Assembly (NCBI GenBank): GCA_017517705.1
Contig: JAFWYM010000041.1
Span: forward strand, 1 to 64,000
Length of the DNA stretch: 64,000 nt
Reading direction: 5' to 3'
DNA from: Alistipes sp.
Lineage (GTDB): Bacteria; Bacteroidota; Bacteroidia; Bacteroidales; Rikenellaceae
Part shown: positions 1 to 58,629 of the stretch, in pieces
How positions within the stretch are numbered: position 1 is the first letter of the stretch
Layout: each line of letters begins with the position of its first letter
Notes under the pieces: model-generated
Seen by the model: only the letters and a program-made list of their open reading frames with translations
Databases searched by the model: none
Told to the model about the DNA's origin: nothing
Translations under genes and position numbers: made by a program

Positions 1-108
1 CCTATTTGCTCCAATACCATAATTTTTAGCAATTGATTTGACCGAGTAACCGTCTTCGAGCATCCTCATATATTTGAGTAATGCTACATAATCGTGTTTT
101 TTGCGCAT
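1..108 (-). CDS. IS3-family transposase orfA, N-terminal fragment (runs off the left edge)
   Basis: The first 36 codons read on the minus strand from the ATG at 106-108. They begin MRKKHDYVALLKYMRMLEDG and continue with a helix-turn-helix-like stretch (YSVKSIAKNYGIGANR). This is the pattern of the small HTH protein (OrfA) of IS3-family elements, which binds the terminal repeats and is fused to the DDE transposase OrfB by frameshifting. A plausible element end lies just upstream of this start. Only the N-terminus is inside the window, so it is unknown whether the element is complete. A free-standing HTH protein is the alternative. Confidence 0.6.
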   Translation of the reverse strand, partial: MRKKHDYVALLKYMRMLEDGYSVKSIAKNYGIGANR

Positions 109-10192: not shown

Positions 10193-10460
10193 AATTTGTT
10201 GTCAAAAGGTAGTAGATGCAACGCTCGGCGAATTTCGAGGCGATGGTAATGTCTAAAAAGTAAGTTTGTCATCCCGTTTTGTTAGGAGGTTGAATAAAAA
10301 GATGTAGTTTTAGGCCTGCGAAGCCCGAAAAAGCGGAGTTTACTTGGCGTAAATGAGCATTTTGAGGGCGAGCATAACGACAAAATACACTTTTTATTCA
10401 GCCTCATTGACGAGATAATTCATTAGCGGCAGCAGATGCTGCCTTTTCTCTCCCCTAATT
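10193..10460. repeat. E element split by an R element (E4a)
   Basis: The left half (10193-10246) starts AATTTGTTGTCAAAAGG and runs to GAGGCGATGG. The right half (10407-10456) begins TTGACGAGATAATTCATTAG and ends GCAGATGCTGCCTTTT. Both halves match the intact E4b copy at 10457. In place of the E4b apex lies R2 with a 39-base leader containing CTAAAAAGTAAGTTTGTCAT. Confidence 0.75.
10286..10405 (+). repeat. R element copy 2
   Basis: 120 bp, ends GAGGTTGAATAAAAAG and CTTTTTATTCAGCCTC. The outer stem differs from R1 (GAGAGT/ACTCTC) but still pairs within the copy (GAGGTT/AGCCTC, with a G-U). Inserted in the apex of an E element. Confidence 0.85.
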
Positions 10461-10596
10461 TGTTGTCAAAAGGTAGTAGATGCAACGCTCGGCGAATTTC
10501 GAGGCGATGGGCTGTACTATGGCGTACTGCCCATTGACGAGATAATTCGTTAGCGGTAGCAGATGCTGCCTTTTCACAACAAATTCACAACAAATT
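10457..10596. repeat. E element copy E4b, ending in a stop codon
   Basis: Ends are AATTTGTTGTCAAAAGG and CCTTTTCACAACAAATT, an imperfect inverted repeat; the last 11 bases are doubled (10576-10585 and 10586-10596). Apex: GATGGGC (10506) pairs with GCCCATT (10529), enclosing GTAC-6 bases-GTAC. The final TTA (10595-10597) is the stop codon of the carbonic anhydrase gene. With the other repeats it fills the 555-base gap 10040-10594, where no gene was found. Confidence 0.75.
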
Positions 10597-11116
10597 AATA
10601 CCAAGAGGCGTACTTACGATAATCCCTGGCGGTACGCTTGATGATCTCCTCGCGCTGCTCGGGGGTGACATCCTTAACCTTCTTGGCGGGGACACCGGCA
10701 TAGACAGAGTTAGGCTCGAGTATCTGCTTCGAGAGGACAAGAGCGTTGGCAGCAACAATACATCCTGTGCCCACGACGGCATTGTCGAGGATGGTGGCAC
10801 CCATACCTATGAGGCAGTCATCCTCGATGGTAGCACCATGGATGATGGCGTTATGACCTACAGATACGTAGTTGCCGATATGTGTCTGCGAGGGGTTCTT
10901 AGAGCCATCGTAGAGGGTGTGGATGACAGCGCCATCCTGAATGTTTGTGTGGTTGCCGATGGTTATGGCGTTGACATCGCCACGTAGCACCGCATTGTAC
11001 CATATCGAGCAGTTCTCGCCAATCTTCACATTACCGATGATGGTGGCGGTCTCAGCCAACCATGTGTCGTTACCTATCTCGGGCGTATAGCCACGTACTT
11101 CTCTTACTAAAGCCAT
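10595..11116 (-). CDS. Gamma carbonic anhydrase family protein
   Basis: 173 residues, a left-handed beta-helix of hexapeptide repeats with a short C-terminal helix. Metal-site histidines are visible in HTNIQDGAVIH and GHNAIIHG, as in the CamH/YrdA group. Proteins of this group may be carbonic anhydrases, but for many the reaction is unproven. Last gene of a six-gene minus-strand operon, 2 bases after mazG. Its stop codon TAA is shared with the end of repeat E4b. Confidence 0.9.
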   Translation of the reverse strand: MALVREVRGYTPEIGNDTWLAETATIIGNVKIGENCSIWYNAVLRGDVNAITIGNHTNIQDGAVIHTLYDGSKNPSQTHIGNYVSVGHNAIIHGATIEDDCLIGMGATILDNAVVGTGCIVAANALVLSKQILEPNSVYAGVPAKKVKDVTPEQREEIIKRTARDYRKYASWY

Positions 11117-19270: not shown

Positions 19271-19489
19271 TGGTATACTTTTATATACCCGTAAGAGTGT
19301 GGGGAGTATGGGGAATGAGGGGAGTATAGGGAGTATAGTGAGTATGGGGAGTGTGGGGAGTGTGGGGAGTATGGGGAGTGTGGGTAATAATGATACCCAA
19401 TCTACCCAGTCTACCCAATCTACCCAATCTACCCAGTCTACCCAATCTACCCAATCTACCCAATCTACCCAATCTACCCAGTCTACCCA
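19271..19489. repeat. Tandem-repeat stretch: G-rich decamers and ten CCCARTCTA nonamers
   Basis: A GGTATA-type hairpin (19271-19290) is followed by irregular 6-10-base G-rich units (GGGGAGTGTG and variants, about 19304-19390). Then come ten 9-base units ACCCAATCT, three of them ACCCAGTCT (19395-19484). The nonamers lack stop codons in several frames and so create fictitious reading frames. No promoter or gene was seen in 19155-19502. Confidence 0.85.
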
Positions 19490-19502
19490 TAGCGCTAACA
19501 TA

Positions 19503-19631
19503 AAATTTCTTGTCAGAAGGGGTTAGGCTTGGTCTCGACATGAAATCAGCCCGGATGGGACATACTCGGCGTATTTCCCATTCGGGCTGATGATTGAGAG
19601 GCCGAGAATGGCCCCTTATCACAAGAAATTT
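19503..19631. repeat. E element copy E1
   Basis: Begins AAATTTCTTGTCAGAAGGGG and ends CCCCTTATCACAAGAAATTT, an imperfect inverted repeat. The apex is a 16-bp stem (ATCAGCCCGGATGGGA at 19545 with TCCCATTCGGGCTGAT at 19576) closed by ATAC-5 bases-GTAT. Shares its last six bases with E2. Confidence 0.8.
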
Positions 19632-19755
19632 GTTGTCAGAAGGGTGCCGAGTGCTACACTCGGCAAAAATGCCACCGATGGGTAGTACTTGAGGTACGTC
19701 CCATTGGTGGCATTTTTTGTTAGGGGCCGCAATCGACCTCTTATCACAAGAAATT
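19626..19755. repeat. E element copy E2, ending in the stop codon of the DUF4465 gene
   Basis: Begins AAATTTGTTGTCAGAAGGG and ends CTCTTATCACAAGAAATT. It contains a small hairpin (GCCGAGTG/CACTCGGC) and a main 18-bp stem (AAAAATGCCACCGATGGG at 19665 with its complement at 19700) closed by GTAC-5 bases-GTAC. The stem with flanking A and T runs could also terminate transcription in both directions. The last TT and the next A form the stop codon at 19754-19756. Confidence 0.8.
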
Positions 19756-20476
19756 ACATGAAGTTGATAGTATAAGTAAGGTCATCCATACAGATGTATA
19801 AGGGTGTATTTGCCCCATACTCGCCGACATCGGTGGTCTCGATGCGGACACGGAGACCGGTGAGCTCGCCACGGAGGGCAGAGATGTCGAAGGCATCCCA
19901 ATTGGTGGCGACGAAGCGCTTGCCATCGCGGTAGTCGACGACATAGCAGTCGACACTCTCACCCTCACTACCATCGCCAAGGAGGGCAGTGAAGATGACC
20001 TTGAGGTAATCGCCATCGGTAAAGGCGCGAGCAAAGGTATTTACATCCTCATCGGTGATGGACTTATAGGTGTAGGTGGTGAGGTTAAGGCGCACGGTGG
20101 TAAACTGATAATCACCGCGATAGTGGCATAAGATGTCGCAAGGCTCGTTATAGCTGTCGTAGTAGTACACGAGGAAGCTATTACCAGAGGCCGCCTTGGT
20201 ATTATATACGCCATACTGGTTGTTAGGCGTGCCATCCTCCATATCGAAGCATTTAGAGTGCGCAAAGCCACCCCAATAGCTATACTCCTCGTTGTAGAAG
20301 TGCTCAAACTTGAGGTAGTCGTTGCGATAACCGAGGGCGTAATCCTCATCCGCAGAGATGGCCGTCTCGAAGCTCTCGACAGCCGAGTAGGAATTAACAC
20401 CACCATTCTGCTCATCAGCATCAAAAGCACAACCGACAAGGAGTGCGGGCAGTAAAATAGAAAATACTCTCTTCAT
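19754..20476 (-). CDS. DUF4465 domain-containing lipoprotein
   Basis: 240 residues from MKRVFSILLPALLVGC (lipobox LVGC); an ATG eight codons earlier, at 20500, is possible. The DUF4465 pattern is seen in order: YWGGFAHSKCFD, NQYGVYNTKAASGNSFLVYY, LNLTTYTYKSI, DGDYLKVIFTALL, CYVVDYRDG and GEYGANTPLYICMDDL. Members are secreted or surface proteins of Bacteroidetes with a jelly-roll-like pattern; function not established. It is the last gene of an operon of otherwise essential cell-cycle genes, which is unusual for a surface lipoprotein. Its stop overlaps element E2. Confidence 0.88.
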   Translation of the reverse strand: MKRVFSILLPALLVGCAFDADEQNGGVNSYSAVESFETAISADEDYALGYRNDYLKFEHFYNEEYSYWGGFAHSKCFDMEDGTPNNQYGVYNTKAASGNSFLVYYYDSYNEPCDILCHYRGDYQFTTVRLNLTTYTYKSITDEDVNTFARAFTDGDYLKVIFTALLGDGSEGESVDCYVVDYRDGKRFVATNWDAFDISALRGELTGLRVRIETTDVGEYGANTPLYICMDDLTYTINFM

Positions 20477-20507
20477 CAATTTAAATATTTGTGTTTTCAC
20501 TATTTAA

Positions 20508-41064: not shown

Positions 41065-42843
41065 ATGAGAAAGATACACATACTATTGGTAATGCTTCTA
41101 AGCTCGGTATCGCTATATGCCGAGCCTATAGGCGAGAATAGGGCACGACAGATAGCCGAGGATTTCTTCTTCACACACGCCACACGTGCTATGACATACA
41201 CACCTATAGCCCTCGAGTGGGCGGGCAATGCCATAGATGAGGCCTCGGTTACGGGTAGCGACCTGGATAATGCACTTCTATATATATATACGCGCGGTGA
41301 ACGTGAGGGCTTCGTGGTGGTTGCCGGTGACAGCAACATAGAGCCAATCATCGCATACTCGTTCGATACGACGCTCGACACATCGGATATGGCCGAGGCG
41401 ACACGCGCCATCCTTGATGCGTGGTGCCGACAGGTGCAGAGTGCTCGCGAGAATGCCCGCCCCATAAGTGGTGACACACGTACCACAACGCGCAACACGG
41501 ATAATCTTTTGTACGACACCGCACTATGGAACCAGAGCGAGCCCTATAATCGCGAGGCCCCGATATACGATGGCTATCGCTCGGTAACGGGCTGTGTGGC
41601 AACAGCCTTGGCTATCTTATGCTACTACAATCGCTGGCCTCAGAAGGGCGTGGGAACAACACCTGAATATAGCTACGAGGACTCCAACCATGTGATACGC
41701 ACAGTGCCCGAGAATAAACTCGGACGCAGCTACGACTACGACAACATGCTTTTTGACTATAACAACGGTTATACCGAGGAGCAAGCCAATGCTGTAGCGG
41801 CACTAATGAAGGATCTTGGCACCGCCGTGCAGATGATGTACTACTACACGGAGTCAGGTGCCTTCAATAACAATGTCTTACCGGCACTCATCAACCACTT
41901 CGACTACTCGCGAGGTATGGTGTTTGAGTGGCGCTACTCCTACTCCGACGACGAGTGGCACGAGATGATGCGCGAGAATCTACGTAACTATGGCCCGACA
42001 TACTACAGCGGGCAGACTGCTGCAGGAGGTCACGCCTTCGTCATCGATGGCTACGACCCCAACGACTTCTTCCACTTCAACTTTGGCTGGGGTGGCGCAG
42101 GAAATGGCTACTACCGCTACCCCAATATGAACTTCTACGAGTGGCAGGGCGCCGTGCTGAACCTCGAGCCGGGCAATGATAGCGCACCCTATCGCGACAA
42201 ACTGCTACTCTACTACGACTACGAAACCGACCCTAACACGGGTGAGATTACGACACTGTATCAAAGCATAACGACCGATGCCGCAAAGTACGAGACGGGA
42301 CTACCCTTCAATGTAATATACAATACGACACTCAACGACGGCGTAACACCCTACAACGGCGATATACGCCTTGTGCTCTGCTCCAAGAGTGGCAAGGTGA
42401 AGGAGGTGCTTAGCACACAGCATATAGATGGGTTGCACGTGGGTTATATCAATCGTGCGAGCCAAGAGCAGGTGACAATAACCTCGGCCATTGAGTTAGG
42501 CGATCGCCTTAGGGTGCAGTACAAGCAACAATACTACGACGAGTGGACGTGGGCACGTAGATATGCCGAAGATGTCAGCTACGACGATGTGGTGGTATGT
42601 GCCACAGCCGAGGAGATAGCCAAGGAGCTTACCATCTGGTATTACAAACAAGAGCACATCCTCTTAATAAACACGATGATGCCACTACATATGTGTGTCT
42701 ACGACGCCACGGATGCGCTGATTCAGGAGGACTACATACCCATGCAGTACAATTATACCATCGACACATCGGCTATGTCGGGCAGCTACGTCTTTACCTT
42801 CTCGCTCGGTAGCGACCCCTACAAGATAACCATAAAATTTTAG
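41065..42843 (+). CDS. Peptidase C10 (streptopain-like) family protein
   Basis: 592 residues. A signal peptide (about 1-19) precedes a SpeB-type propeptide (residues 21-150: PIGENRARQIAEDFF and EGFVVVAGDSNIEPIIAYSF). The papain-like domain carries catalytic Cys177 in SVTGCVATALAILCYYNRWP and His323 in AAGGHAFVIDGYD, followed by FHFNFGWGG. The C-terminal 220 residues form beta-rich domains likely used for surface retention. C10 proteases of Bacteroides are secreted and self-processed. Lipoprotein C or the small peptide could be a substrate or inhibitor; no inhibitor signature was seen. Confidence 0.92.
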   Translation: MRKIHILLVMLLSSVSLYAEPIGENRARQIAEDFFFTHATRAMTYTPIALEWAGNAIDEASVTGSDLDNALLYIYTRGEREGFVVVAGDSNIEPIIAYSFDTTLDTSDMAEATRAILDAWCRQVQSARENARPISGDTRTTTRNTDNLLYDTALWNQSEPYNREAPIYDGYRSVTGCVATALAILCYYNRWPQKGVGTTPEYSYEDSNHVIRTVPENKLGRSYDYDNMLFDYNNGYTEEQANAVAALMKDLGTAVQMMYYYTESGAFNNNVLPALINHFDYSRGMVFEWRYSYSDDEWHEMMRENLRNYGPTYYSGQTAAGGHAFVIDGYDPNDFFHFNFGWGGAGNGYYRYPNMNFYEWQGAVLNLEPGNDSAPYRDKLLLYYDYETDPNTGEITTLYQSITTDAAKYETGLPFNVIYNTTLNDGVTPYNGDIRLVLCSKSGKVKEVLSTQHIDGLHVGYINRASQEQVTITSAIELGDRLRVQYKQQYYDEWTWARRYAEDVSYDDVVVCATAEEIAKELTIWYYKQEHILLINTMMPLHMCVYDATDALIQEDYIPMQYNYTIDTSAMSGSYVFTFSLGSDPYKITIKF

Positions 42844-42862: not shown

Positions 42863-42894
42863 GGGGATGACTAAAAAGTAATTTTGTCATCCCC
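42863..42894 (+). terminator. Hairpin (terminator-like) before repeat R3
   Basis: GGGGATGAC pairs with GTCATCCCC, extended by AAAA/TTTT with one bulged T. Followed by GTTTTG. Probably ends the C10 peptidase transcript; a matching hairpin precedes R4 (44982) and a decayed one precedes R2. Confidence 0.7.
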
Positions 42895-42904
42895 GTTTTG
42901 TTAA

Positions 42905-43024
42905 GAGGTTGAATAAAAAGATGTAGTTTTAGGCTTGCGAAGCCCGAAAAAGCGGAGTTTACTTGGCGTAAATGAGCATTTTGAGGGCAAGCATAACGAC
43001 AAAATACACTTTTTATTCAGCCTC
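42905..43024 (+). repeat. R element copy 3
   Basis: 120 bp, ends GAGGTTGAATAAAAAG and CTTTTTATTCAGCCTC as in R2. In the core both GCTTGC (left) and GCAAGC (right) differ from the other copies, and in this copy the two pair perfectly. Confidence 0.85.
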
Positions 43025-43063
43025 ATTTATATGGTTTATAAGGTAAAATGTGTCGAGATATAT

Positions 43064-43889: not shown

Positions 43890-44981
43890 GATTGGGTACT
43901 ACCCATATTACACATATTACCCTTACTACCCATATTACCCTTACTATCCATGCTCAGATGCTTCGACTATGCTCAGCATGACAATTGCGCCTCGTTCTCT
44001 TCACGTGTCATTACATCCCACAATGCTACACGACGCTACACGACGCAATACCGTATCACGGGTATTATTTTTAATACCCGTGATGTTTATTCGCTTTCGT
44101 ACTCTATACGCACCGCACCACTCCAGATGCTTCGACTACGCTCAGCATGACAACTTCGTCTCGTTCTCGTCACTCGCTCATACGCCCCACGACGCCCTAC
44201 CGCATTACGGGTATTATTTTTAATACCCGTGATGTTTATTCGCGTTCGCACTCCATGCGCATCGCATCACAGCAGATGCTTCGACTACGCTCAGCATGAC
44301 AACTTCGCCTCGTTCTCGTCACTCGCTCATACGCCCCACGACGCCCTACCGCATTGCGGGTATTAAAAATAATACCCGTGATGTTTAGGAGGGGGGGTAT
44401 GGTGGGGTACGGTATGGTGTGTGGTGGGGCGCGGTGGGGTGCTATGTGACACTGTGTCATCCTGAGCGGAGCGTAAGCGTAGTCGAAGAATCTGGTAATT
44501 AAAGACGAAAGAGACGTAGTGACGAAGAGACGAAAGAGAAGGTTTTAATTTTCCCCTTCGTCGCCTCGTCCTTTCGTCATTATTGGGTATTGGGGACTAC
44601 CCACACTACCTATAACTAATAGCGCAGTCATGGGGAGCATAGGGAGCCAGGGTAGATTGGGTAGCCTGGGTAAAGCGTTATCAGATAATTACACGTACTA
44701 CTCATATTACCCTTACTACCAATGCTCAGATGCTTCGACTGCGCTCAGCATGACAACTGCGTGCTTGCCCTCCGTCTTGCGGGTATTAAAAATAATACCC
44801 GTGATGTTTAGGAGGGGGCTATAGGGGGGAATGAGTTCCTACTGGGCACTTTGTCATCCTGAGCGGAGCGTAAGCGTAGTCGAAGGATCTGAATGAGGAG
44901 AGAAAGGGTGATACGGGTAGTGTGGGTGGTACACAGCATACCCAATCTACCCAACGATCACAATCGACAGCTACAATGAAA
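43890..44981. repeat. Repeat island 1: REP-like sequences, CGGGTATT hairpins and short tandem repeats
   Basis: No gene was seen in 43816-45178. Six REP-like sequences: CAGATGCTTCGACTACGCTC and continuing AGCATGACAA at 43955, 44124, 44273 and 44727; the reverse form GTCATCCTGAGCGGAGCGTA at 44456 and 44853. Four hairpins CGGGTATT/AATACCCG at 44055, 44207, 44357 and 44780. In two places the order is REP, hairpin, inverted REP (44273-44494 and 44727-44891). Between them are short TACCC- and GGGTAG-type tandem units (43898-43950, 44584-44675, 44918-44955) and a G-rich stretch (44390-44440). Confidence 0.85.
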
Positions 44982-45011
44982 GGGCTGACTAAGAAGTAAC
45001 TTAGTCAGCCC
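44982..45011. terminator. Strong hairpin before repeat R4
   Basis: GGGCTGACTAAG and CTTAGTCAGCCC form a perfect 12-bp stem with a 6-base loop (AAGTAA). It has no T run, so it is not a standard terminator. Same position relative to R4 as the hairpin at 42863 relative to R3. Confidence 0.6.
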
Positions 45012-45022
45012 CTGATACTCAA

Positions 45023-45142
45023 GAGAGTAAATAAAAAGATGTAGTTTTAGGCCTGCGAAGCCCGAAAAAGCGGAGTTTACTTGGCGTAAATGAGCATTTT
45101 GAGGGCGAGCGTAACGCAGAAATACACTTTTTATTCACTCTC
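45023..45142 (+). repeat. R element copy 4
   Basis: 120 bp, differing from R1 by about one base (GAGAGTAAAT instead of GAGAGTGAAT). Sits 36 bases from the stop codon of dsbD. Confidence 0.85.
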
Positions 45143-45178
45143 TTATAGGGGGCGACGTGGCCCCATATCACACGTGAT

Positions 45179-56804: not shown

Positions 56805-56956
56805 TTATTTGTGGAGAATGAAGAGAGACTGGAGGCAAACACCGCGGAAAACGGAAAATGCCGAAACTCATATTAACTAATAGGAGCTTATTTTTGATAA
56901 GATACTATGAGCCTCTTAGGGTTTATAAAGGCTACCATCTCTCGCTACACGAGACG

Positions 56957-57060
56957 GAAGAGGCGGAAGAGGCGGAAGAGGCGGAAGAGGCGGAAGAGGC
57001 GGAAGAGGCGGAAGAGGCGGAAGAGGCGGAAGAGGCGGGAGAGGCGGGAGAGCGGGAGAG
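56957..57060. repeat. Nine tandem GAAGAGGCG nonamers
   Basis: Nine perfect 9-base units GAAGAGGCG (56957-57037) then degenerate GGAGAGGCG/GGAGAG units. A multiple of three without stops, so it opens fictitious frames (Glu-Ala-Glu or Lys-Arg-Arg repeats). Confidence 0.92.
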
Positions 57061-57104
57061 ACTGCAGCCCAGCCTACGCTCATATTCGCACCACCATACT
57101 ATTG

Positions 57105-57601
57105 CGGGTATTATTTTTAATACCCGAGTTACTTTATGCTCAACTCCACAACTATACACTGTTTCTACCGCATTGCGGGTATTATTTTTAATACCCGCGA
57201 TGTTTAGGGGCTATATATTCCTGTAGGCGATCTGTCATCCTGAGCGGAGCATAAGCGCAGTCGAAGGATCTGATAGAGACGAAAGAAGCATAGTAATAGC
57301 ATGCACCTACACCTACACCTACACTCGCAGCGCCATACACCAGATGCTTCGACTATGCTCAGCATGACAACTACGCCCTCCCCTAAGCTCTTGCGGGTAT
57401 ATAAAAGTATACCCGCAACCACATCACAAACACCCTCTCTCTCACCCCTACCGCATTGCGGGTATTATTTTTAATACCCGTGATGTTGAGGGGGCATTGT
57501 AGACCACTATGTCATCCTGAACGTAGTGAAGGATCTCTAAAAGAGGTAAGAGACGATAACGACCTTGCGAGCAGATGCTTCGGCTTCGCTCAGCATGACA
57601 T
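57105..57601. repeat. Repeat island 2: CGGGTATT hairpins and REP-like sequences
   Basis: No gene seen in 56805-57753. Hairpins CGGGTATT/AATACCCG at 57105, 57175 and 57459, and a variant GCGGGTATA/TATACCCGC at 57391. REP-like sequences at 57234 (reverse), 57341 (forward), 57511 (reverse, shortened form GTCATCCTGAACGTAGTGAA) and 57572 (forward). From 57341 to 57537 the order is again REP, hairpins, inverted REP. Short CACCTA hexamers at 57304-57324. Confidence 0.85.
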
Positions 57602-57753: not shown

Positions 57754-58629
57754 TTAGAAGTATTTGATATCCTTATCCTCAATTGCTGAAATAAGATTAT
57801 TCGCTGCTGATGATGCTCCAATGCGGAAGAGATCGGTGGTAAGCCACTCGGGGCCCAATACCTCCTCAACGATAGTGTAGTATAGAGCAGCATCCTCGGG
57901 CGTACGCACGCCACCTGCAGCCTTAAAGCCCACCTTACGACCCGTCATATTGTAGTAGTCCTTGATGGCGTGACACATAACAAAGGCCGCCTCGGGCGTT
58001 GCTGCAACATCTATCTTGCCTGTCGATGTCTTAACGAAGTCGGCACCTGCGAACATAGAGACAAGCGATGCTCGACGTATAAGCTCGGGGGTCTTGAGCG
58101 CTCCCGACTCGATGATGACCTTCAGGACAACATCCTTAGCCTCCTCCCTGAGAACCTCGACCTCACTGGCAGCCTCGGCCTCGTGGCCGGCAAGCATCAT
58201 ACCCGGGCTGAGGACTATATCCACCTCGTCGGCGCCATTCTCAATGGCCATAGCCACCTCCAAGGCCTTAACCTCGATGAAGCTCTGCGACGCGGGGAAG
58301 GCTCCCGCAACACTCGTGATGCGCATAGGCGTGCCGTCGACTTCCAAGCCTACGGTCTCAACGAAGGGAGGATATACACATATAGAGGCCACATTGGGGA
58401 TGTGGGGATACTTCTCGTAGAAGTCTACAGCCTTACGCACAAAGGCCTGAACCGACTCTCGAGAGTCGTTGCACGACAGTGTCGTAAGGTCGATGGCCGA
58501 ATAGCAGAACTTGTATACATCAACATTACCATTACGGTTTGCCGCCATCTTAATCTTAGCAACCTCCTTAGCCACCTGCGCCTCGCTATGTGCCGGTGCA
58601 TATTTCTCTAACTCTCTAACGTAGTCCAT
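57754..58629 (-). CDS. deoC: Deoxyribose-phosphate aldolase
   Basis: 291 residues, class I aldolase barrel. Catalytic lysine in GADFVKTSTGK and second lysine in VGFKAAGGVRTPEDA; also ASICVYPPFV and GADEVDIVLSPGMMLAG. It splits deoxyribose 5-phosphate to acetaldehyde and glyceraldehyde 3-phosphate in nucleoside breakdown. Longer than E. coli DeoC by an N-terminal extension of about 30 residues, common in Bacteroidetes. Own promoter; E3 lies at its 3' end. Confidence 0.95.
   Translation of the reverse strand: MDYVRELEKYAPAHSEAQVAKEVAKIKMAANRNGNVDVYKFCYSAIDLTTLSCNDSRESVQAFVRKAVDFYEKYPHIPNVASICVYPPFVETVGLEVDGTPMRITSVAGAFPASQSFIEVKALEVAMAIENGADEVDIVLSPGMMLAGHEAEAASEVEVLREEAKDVVLKVIIESGALKTPELIRRASLVSMFAGADFVKTSTGKIDVAATPEAAFVMCHAIKDYYNMTGRKVGFKAAGGVRTPEDAALYYTIVEEVLGPEWLTTDLFRIGASSAANNLISAIEDKDIKYF

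Follow-up and report, generated by a model that had tools for sequence, protein, structure and literature searches.

The stretch of DNA that was analysed, a window of 64 kb, contains four complete copies of a palindromic hairpin that we call E, about 129 bases in size and encoding no protein, together with a truncated copy, an extra right end and three gene ends at which copies lie:

19504..19630, + strand: E1, complete element with outer stem AATTTC/GAAATT; motif, fold and covariance-model matches
19627..19755, + strand: E2, complete tandem partner of E1, sharing AATT with it and running at its right end into the DUF4465 stop
10457..10585, + strand: E3, complete element; motif, fold and pattern match
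10586..10596, + strand: extra right end CACAACAAATT, directly after E3 and running into the stop codon
57618..57748, + strand: E4, complete element whose outer stem has C·C as its innermost pair
10193..10246, + strand: truncated E, left half only, with its break just 5' of the apex (between GATGG and TAATG); read by eye
19754..19756, − strand: TAA stop of the DUF4465 gene (19754-20500); protein family match
10595..10597, − strand: TAA stop of the putative gamma-carbonic-anhydrase-like gene (10595-11116); hexapeptide-repeat match
57754..57756, − strand: TAA stop of deoC (57754-58629); DeoC match

The gene abutting E3 is read as gamma-carbonic-anhydrase-like from the match of its protein to hexapeptide repeats. 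The initial annotation had described four copies with shared ends and an apex of the form RTAC-N5/6-GTAY. All four copies were found, the apex is present in 4/4, and the end motifs exceed expectation: the right-end motif CCYTWTCACAASAAATT has 11 matches in the window at three or fewer mismatches against 0.48 expected, a count including left ends in reverse reading and a match at 42187 that is probably due to chance, and TTGTCARAAGG has seven matches at no more than one mismatch against 1.3 expected. E4 departs from the rule for the ends, since its outer ends, TATTTC...CAAATT, place C opposite C. The fold of every complete copy runs over its whole length or almost. In shuffle tests E1 to E4 have z-scores of -11.6, -6.3, -8.2 and -7.6 on the + strand and -8.4, -7.2, -6.2 and -5.9 on the − strand; in E2 the − strand is better by z and the + strand by energy. 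All three abutting genes are on the − strand, so the lower-energy strand of E (+) is their template strand. In 3/3 of these genes the stop meets the right end of E. It had been claimed that an element end falls within 0-5 bases of a TAA stop in each, and this is so for E2, which overlaps the stop, and for E4, which ends 5 bases from the deoC stop, but not for E3, which ends 9 bases from its stop, the extra CACAACAAATT bridging the gap. The cores of E2 and E3 are each 99% identical to another copy in the genome of the window (G000), at C3:12550 and C15:81850, respectively. No Rfam family matched the window at its gathering score; the best sub-threshold match, at E1/E2, scored 24.5 bits, where the gathering score is 80.

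Other repeats lie in the same window. A second palindromic family, at 122-287, 10245-10410, 42864-43029 and 44982-45147, has the outer stem GAGGCTGAATAAAAAG/CTTTTTATTCAGCCTC and the apex TTTAC-TTGGC-GTAAA; its + strand is lower in energy in 3/3 copies folded, and it may be kin of E. Minisatellite arrays of 9 bp (TACCCAATC, GAGGCGGAA and variants) occupy 19286-19490, beside E1, and 56951-57075, in the region before E4, and repeats of a TGTCATCCTGAGCGGAGCGTAAGCGTAGTCGAAGGATCTG motif with CGGGTATTA...TAATACCCG hairpins in between occupy 43953-44890 and 57213-57600.

A covariance search had been suggested as a way to look for further copies, and it returned many more. A pattern of the exact ends identified 22 places in G000 (reversed control, 0), and a covariance model made from the four window copies gave at least 107 matches there at an expectation value of 0.001 or less, many elements being counted on both strands and the best 150 of 447 candidates being scored. 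Across 61 genomes of the window's genus, covariance-model matches occur in 39 and are absent from 22; for 12 of the 39 carriers the best 54 candidates were scored, so that their copy counts are to be read as "at least". A further scan matched 14 of 41 genomes, all 14 being among the 25 of the genus, with 0/16 from other families. In a scan of genome contigs at least 116 stretches contain E; 78 of the 80 listed carry the name Alistipes or Rikenellaceae in their titles, and these are mostly metagenome-assembled genomes from ruminant hindgut. The two pattern matches listed outside Rikenellaceae (L096, L103) look like chance and were dropped. Neither the plasmid sequences nor the viral contigs searched gave an E match. 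The carriers are a group of uncultured gut Bacteroidales within a Rikenellaceae genus, across which the distribution of E is patchy.

A family-wide scan matched 2/3 members of the genus and gave five weak matches in 3/37 genomes of other genera. These weak, E-like hairpins (L286-L290) come from three other Rikenellaceae genera (genomes G105, G109 and G110) and have ends such as AAATGTTCAAAAAGG; the minimum free energy (MFE) is lower on the + strand in 5/5, a GTAC-loop-GTA apex is present in 4/5 and an AAAAGG/CCTTTT box in 3/5. L289 lies at -5 from a stop codon, and L290, inside a long open frame, may be a chance match.

The position of E relative to genes was assessed in 177 oriented copies that were found via the end pattern or the model and not via stop codons, some of them being orthologous and the copies therefore not independent. 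The stop of the right neighbour faces the element in 151 of 165 cases, and in 116 of these 151 it falls within -30..10 of the element end; on the left side, none of 63 facing stops falls within 10 bases. E had been proposed to be a 3'-end element, and the junction proved sharper than that claim: in 66 of the 151 the stop codon is followed immediately by TTTS (TTT being altered in a few) and TTGTG. The stops in question are TAA in 60, TAG in 6 and TGA in none, set against TAA 196, TAG 98 and TGA 22 in the 316 genes of the stretches. Among 292 genes without an E-like start behind them, TTTG or TTTC follows the stop in only 2, from which it follows that TTTS comes with the element. In a further 9/151 the stop is a TGA within the element (offset -6), and in L100, and in L139 compared with L106, E appears to have removed the C-terminus of the protein and supplied the stop.

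Stop-codon proximity was also compared with chance placement, in 464 kb comprising the window and 20 stretches of two relatives, these partly chosen around matches. The 45 elements there are made up of 44 separate places, two of which score under 30 bits, and of E2, the overlapping neighbour of E1. A stop is found at the proximal end of 31/45 and at the distal end of 1/45, against a mean of 3.45 (maximum 10 in 500 rounds) for random intergenic placement. Several of the remaining elements lie about 120-255 bases from a stop, as the second or third of a tandem; one counted as a miss (L264, 18320) probably has the wrong strand listed, its + match being masked by a neighbour. Most copies of E thus share one orientation, in which the TTTS end adjoins a stop codon. 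Stem-loops are described as clustering after stop codons in many bacteria (PMC1590033).

That the stems differ and yet pair, often through G-U, had also been noticed in the window, and a wider alignment bears it out. We aligned 28 representatives of less than 80% identity (34 were picked; four chance matches and two reversed copies were dropped), chosen by a pattern requiring the AAGG/CCTT boxes and the TAC...GTA apex, so that those columns are invariant in part by construction. Both sides have changed in 29 of 38 consensus pairs, compensatory changes thus being frequent, and the covariation score is 0.606 against 0.172. With the many further copies and their non-random placement at stops, the initial annotation thus survives the refutation test that it had set. 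Of all cells, 94.0% are paired, compared with 70.3% after shuffling (0 of 500 shuffles reach the observed value) and with 36-45% in slid controls, over which the true register is favoured since the structure was derived from the same alignment. The fold is strand-specific. On the + strand, where mismatched columns stand beside the AAGG box, G·U occupies 92 cells and A·C 16 (46 and 14 without three wobble-rich columns), and 26/28 representatives have their lower MFE on this strand; in the wider set, RNA MFE is lower on + in 160/177 and G·U amounts to 4.07 against 0.47 per copy. The strand with the conserved fold is therefore the template strand of the abutting gene, the complement of its mRNA. 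Selection thus seems to act on one strand, as RNA or as DNA in single-stranded form; were an exposed coding strand deaminated, a bias opposite to that seen would be predicted. Folding energies and the tolerance of G·U are no less in keeping with RNA than with DNA, and an RNA function of the + strand is possible.

The initial annotation had suggested that E can double as a terminator or mRNA-stabilising hairpin. In its strongest form this would mean that E serves chiefly at the 3' end of the mRNA, as terminator, stabiliser or RNase target of the gene in front, and is selected as RNA and spread by gene conversion. Such an element would be expected to show what we see in its orientation-biased position behind stop codons, its very stable folds and its presence at the same gene in several species. 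On the gene-sense strand, under a loose rule, a run of at least four T stands at the foot of the upper stem in 88/188 copies, and in three comparisons by eye (L019 with L189, L139 with L106, L175 with L086) the E-less orthologue has a terminator-like hairpin of which the approximately 320 nt behind E show no counterpart, as if E had taken its place. We nevertheless consider this explanation unlikely. The fold is selected on the complement of that mRNA, 100/188 copies are without the T run, and a strict stem-loop-T scan places a terminator inside E in 11/174. In L155, compared by eye with its orthologue L044, E has the stop codon on one side and on the other a terminator that both loci share, so that the native terminator is kept, and the outer pair of E changes jointly between near-identical copies, as described below. 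Behind E the strict scan has 32/174, against 12-27 in five shuffles. With the evidence mixed, termination or mRNA stabilisation is not supported as the main role, which it may yet be; termination as a side-role, a by-product in some E subfamilies, is possible.

The suggestion that E is mobile or copied was borne out by 54 pairs of copies with non-orthologous flanks and core identity of at least 97%, some of 100% (for example G000:C6:40965 and G000:C25:24827), the pairs not being independent. Near-identical cores behind different genes mean that E is copied. Copies also turn over. At deoC, E is at the stop in 8/13 close orthologues (at least 88% protein identity), with cores that differ, and 5/13 do not show E; the same picture is seen at two other genes (L083/L113/L167 and L089/L175/L187). 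Of 24 pairs with matching right flanks, some of which are tandem neighbours or one locus and not gene ends, 16 have a core identity of 0.69-0.79, the level of unrelated copies. A site can therefore stay occupied while the element in it differs. Downstream regions of E-less orthologues are mostly too diverged to give exact empty sites. The one exception is an insertion in another repeat: in L175 (reverse strand, about 198) an E is nested in the second palindromic repeat, of which empty copies are present in the window, and a similar nested E occurs in L044. Compared by eye, what separates filled from empty repeats is E and about one further base, and no duplication is seen.

The two ends of E were analysed in 133 copies without a neighbouring E. 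The outermost position of the element, S, is complementary between the ends in 130/133 copies, against 56.5 in shuffles. Complementarity extends to positions 4 (130/133, against 118.8, maximum 124) and 5 (121 against 97.1, maximum 105); position 6 (98/133 against 89.9, maximum 99) is within the range of the shuffles, and there is no signal beyond it. Across 177 copies the S pair is C/G in 79, G/C in 74, T/A in 9, A/T in 7 and other in 8. It differs in 16 of the 54 near-identical core pairs and in 10 of these is complementary in both copies. The distal end also answers to the stop codon itself: the distal base is C opposite TAG in 4/6 and opposite TAA in 0/60 (Fisher p=2e-5). When copies 1-8 differences apart are compared, changes in the core pairs are one-sided in 61 cases and joint in 11 (eight of them at one position; 5.5 expected by chance, maximum 11), and even among the outer six pairs of the same copies one-sided changes (23) outnumber joint ones (17, of which 13 at S). 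We therefore rejected simultaneous change of both stem arms by template copying, which only the S pair suggests.

AATT stands on both sides in 82/133 copies, which would be an apparent target-site duplication were AATT not its own reverse complement. The informative copies are the 38 whose proximal 4-mer is not AATT: none has a direct repeat, 12 have an inverted repeat and 11 have plain AATT distally. Target duplication was rejected accordingly, as was insertion at TA, the distal flank base 7 being A in 26% of 173. E has no target-site duplication, and S, with in part pairs 4-5 (which may include the last base of the stop), is set jointly, site by site. The simplest reading is that S is set jointly at insertion; it is also possible that selection for pairing alone explains the joint outer pair. 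A loose motif, GGGTYGTGGTGC, was seen by eye beyond the distal end in many copies, such as L085, L113 and L058; it could belong to the element itself or be left over from a partner site.

These junctions bear directly on whether E could be a classical MITE, moved by the DDE transposase of an insertion sequence, as proposed for RUP and IS630, and targeted to TA or AATT. Size, inverted AT-rich ends and the frequent AATT on both sides agree with such an origin. We think it quite improbable, given the inverted and never direct repeats in the non-AATT copies and a base 7 at odds with TA duplication. Pairing along the whole element with G·U on one strand would be unneeded by a DDE enzyme, and no insertion sequence with E ends was seen in 1.75 Mb of loci. 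Likewise, among 64 orphan ends in these partly overlapping loci we found no long element with E ends.

We searched for a mover in the 61 genomes of the genus, many of which are draft and several incomplete assemblies. Transposases of the Y1_Tnp family (PF01797; RAYT, IS200) were detected in 0/61, compared with 5/14 control genomes, and integron integrases over cut-off in 0/61, and both were rejected as movers. Reverse transcriptase, present in 20/61, is absent from G000 and from 13/19 of the richest carriers; its presence does not track E, and it was rejected as well. Weaker matches to tyrosine recombinases occur in 61/61, and the mover is possibly a tyrosine recombinase or an enzyme of a kind not yet recognised.

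Two explanations fall largely with these counts. A REPIN-like element moved in trans by a Y1 transposase would account for a palindromic, non-autonomous repeat with tandem clusters and a folded strand, and might be favoured on those grounds were it not that PF01797 is missing, that the ends of E pair with each other and that the alignment has no GTAG tag; we regard this as close to refuted. A recombination site of the integron attC type, for which the position behind the stop codon, the folded template (bottom) strand, the mismatches near the ends and the variable stem all speak, is likewise close to refuted and, in our estimate, extremely improbable: in addition to the missing integrase, there is no GTTRRRY box, S can be any base, and copies are dispersed with short tandems and not in cassette arrays.

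It could also be that no dedicated enzyme is involved and that E spreads by template switching during replication, cruciform breakage and recombination between copies. Half elements broken just short of the apex lie beside complete copies in L020, L102 and L200 and at 10193-10246 of the window (single cases, by eye), as though the tips of extruded hairpins had been cut off; internal symmetric deletions were seen by eye in L130 and L172, and tandem copies are found. In the same direction, SbcD is above the family cut-off in 0/61 genomes of the genus, compared with 8/14 control genomes. The absence of SbcD might permit long palindromes, or the cut-off might be ill-suited to this group; as the cause of E accumulation its loss was rejected, carriers and non-carriers alike being below cut-off. 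We give little credence to spread without an enzyme, which alone leaves the exact stop junction, the orientation and the joint outer pair unexplained.

With a probability that we put at slightly more than one half (about 0.53), we hypothesize that E is a new family of small, protein-less, palindromic, non-autonomous mobile DNA that acts in the form of a single folded strand. In the reading direction of the gene that it follows, the unit is [AA]TTTS-TTGTGAYAAGG ... apex ... CCTTYTGACAA-SAAA[TT]. Its active form would be the folded + strand, and a recombinase or transposase would recognise features of the fold, namely the AAGG box, the internal mismatches and the apex. One end would be joined behind a stop codon, and the other would gain its complementarity to the flank either through fold-back copying or because pairing is selected. 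The end of E would itself supply stop codons, either TAA or TTG-TGA-TAA; because it does so and lies beyond the coding part, insertions would be nearly harmless, and gene 3' ends would thus offer copies a refuge to build up in and to take each other's place. Against this hypothesis stand the failure to find a mover in the genomes and loci searched, the mostly one-sided core changes, a fold that suits RNA as well as DNA, the three comparisons in which E replaces a terminator-like hairpin, and the general clustering of stem-loops after stops. A more specific version of this hypothesis, that folded single-stranded E is moved by a recombinase of neither the IS200/RAYT nor the integron kind, homes to stop codons in a preferred orientation and has its outer stem rebuilt on the target flank with every insertion, giving inverted and not direct target repeats, is speculative, and we put it forward tentatively as one that is rather unlikely to hold in every part. 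If it is true, the weak matches in three other Rikenellaceae genera would point to a wider, undescribed superfamily.

Several known systems resemble E, and searches of the open-licence PMC literature showed no description of the family. E has the traits of a MITE in being short, without protein, with inverted ends and in dispersed copies; bacterial MITEs mostly have target duplications and TA ends (PMC2229807). The ERIC/IRU/RU-1, RUP and YPAL repeats are, according to PMC2229807 and PMC2759123, like E in being shorter than 200 bp, protein-less, palindromic and intergenic, with a long RNA hairpin and sometimes a position at gene 3' ends, and their mover is given there as mostly unknown. E differs from them in having no target duplication and no TA rule, in its orientation to stop codons, in the strong covariation of its diverse stems, in G·U that is specific to one strand and in a joint outer pair. 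REPINs, described in PMC3116915 as REP doublets tied to RAYTs, share with E inverted ends, a hairpin of single-stranded DNA, a non-autonomous nature and tandem clusters (PMC3116915 and PMC3733652), and the strand-specific covariation of E is compatible with a folded single-strand intermediate such as theirs. Unlike REPINs, E is found without a Y1 transposase in the 61 genomes of the genus, and its ends are not tagged REP palindromes. The stem-loop families of PMC1590033 are stable, lie tens of bases from stops and are in some cases repeated; in E, by comparison, the junction is often exact to the base and the fold is kept on the antisense strand. Palindromic candidates from human-gut Bacteroidetes are listed in PMC8040213, and are set beside E by description only.

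The attC sites of integrons lie at the ends of cassette genes, and the full consensus of their R box is GTTRRRY/RYYYAAC. As with E, whose bottom strand folds with unpaired bases, their structure is recognised on the bottom strand; they measure 57-142 nt, are poorly conserved in sequence and have unpaired features (PMC2727003). E differs in the lack of an IntI over cut-off, of the R-box consensus and of cassette arrays, and in an apex that is similar among copies and not variable. E thus works most like attC, in its template strand, its structure and its stop codon, and looks most like a MITE, and it fails a defining test of each. Small palindromic repeats are common, and what moves them and why they prefer gene ends is mostly unexplained. 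The E family offers over a hundred natural replicates in one genus, with exact stop junctions, strand-specific covariation and E-free sister species; with the replicates, the junctions and the E-free sisters in hand, what moves such hairpins, and whether their role is played as RNA or as single-stranded DNA, become directly testable.
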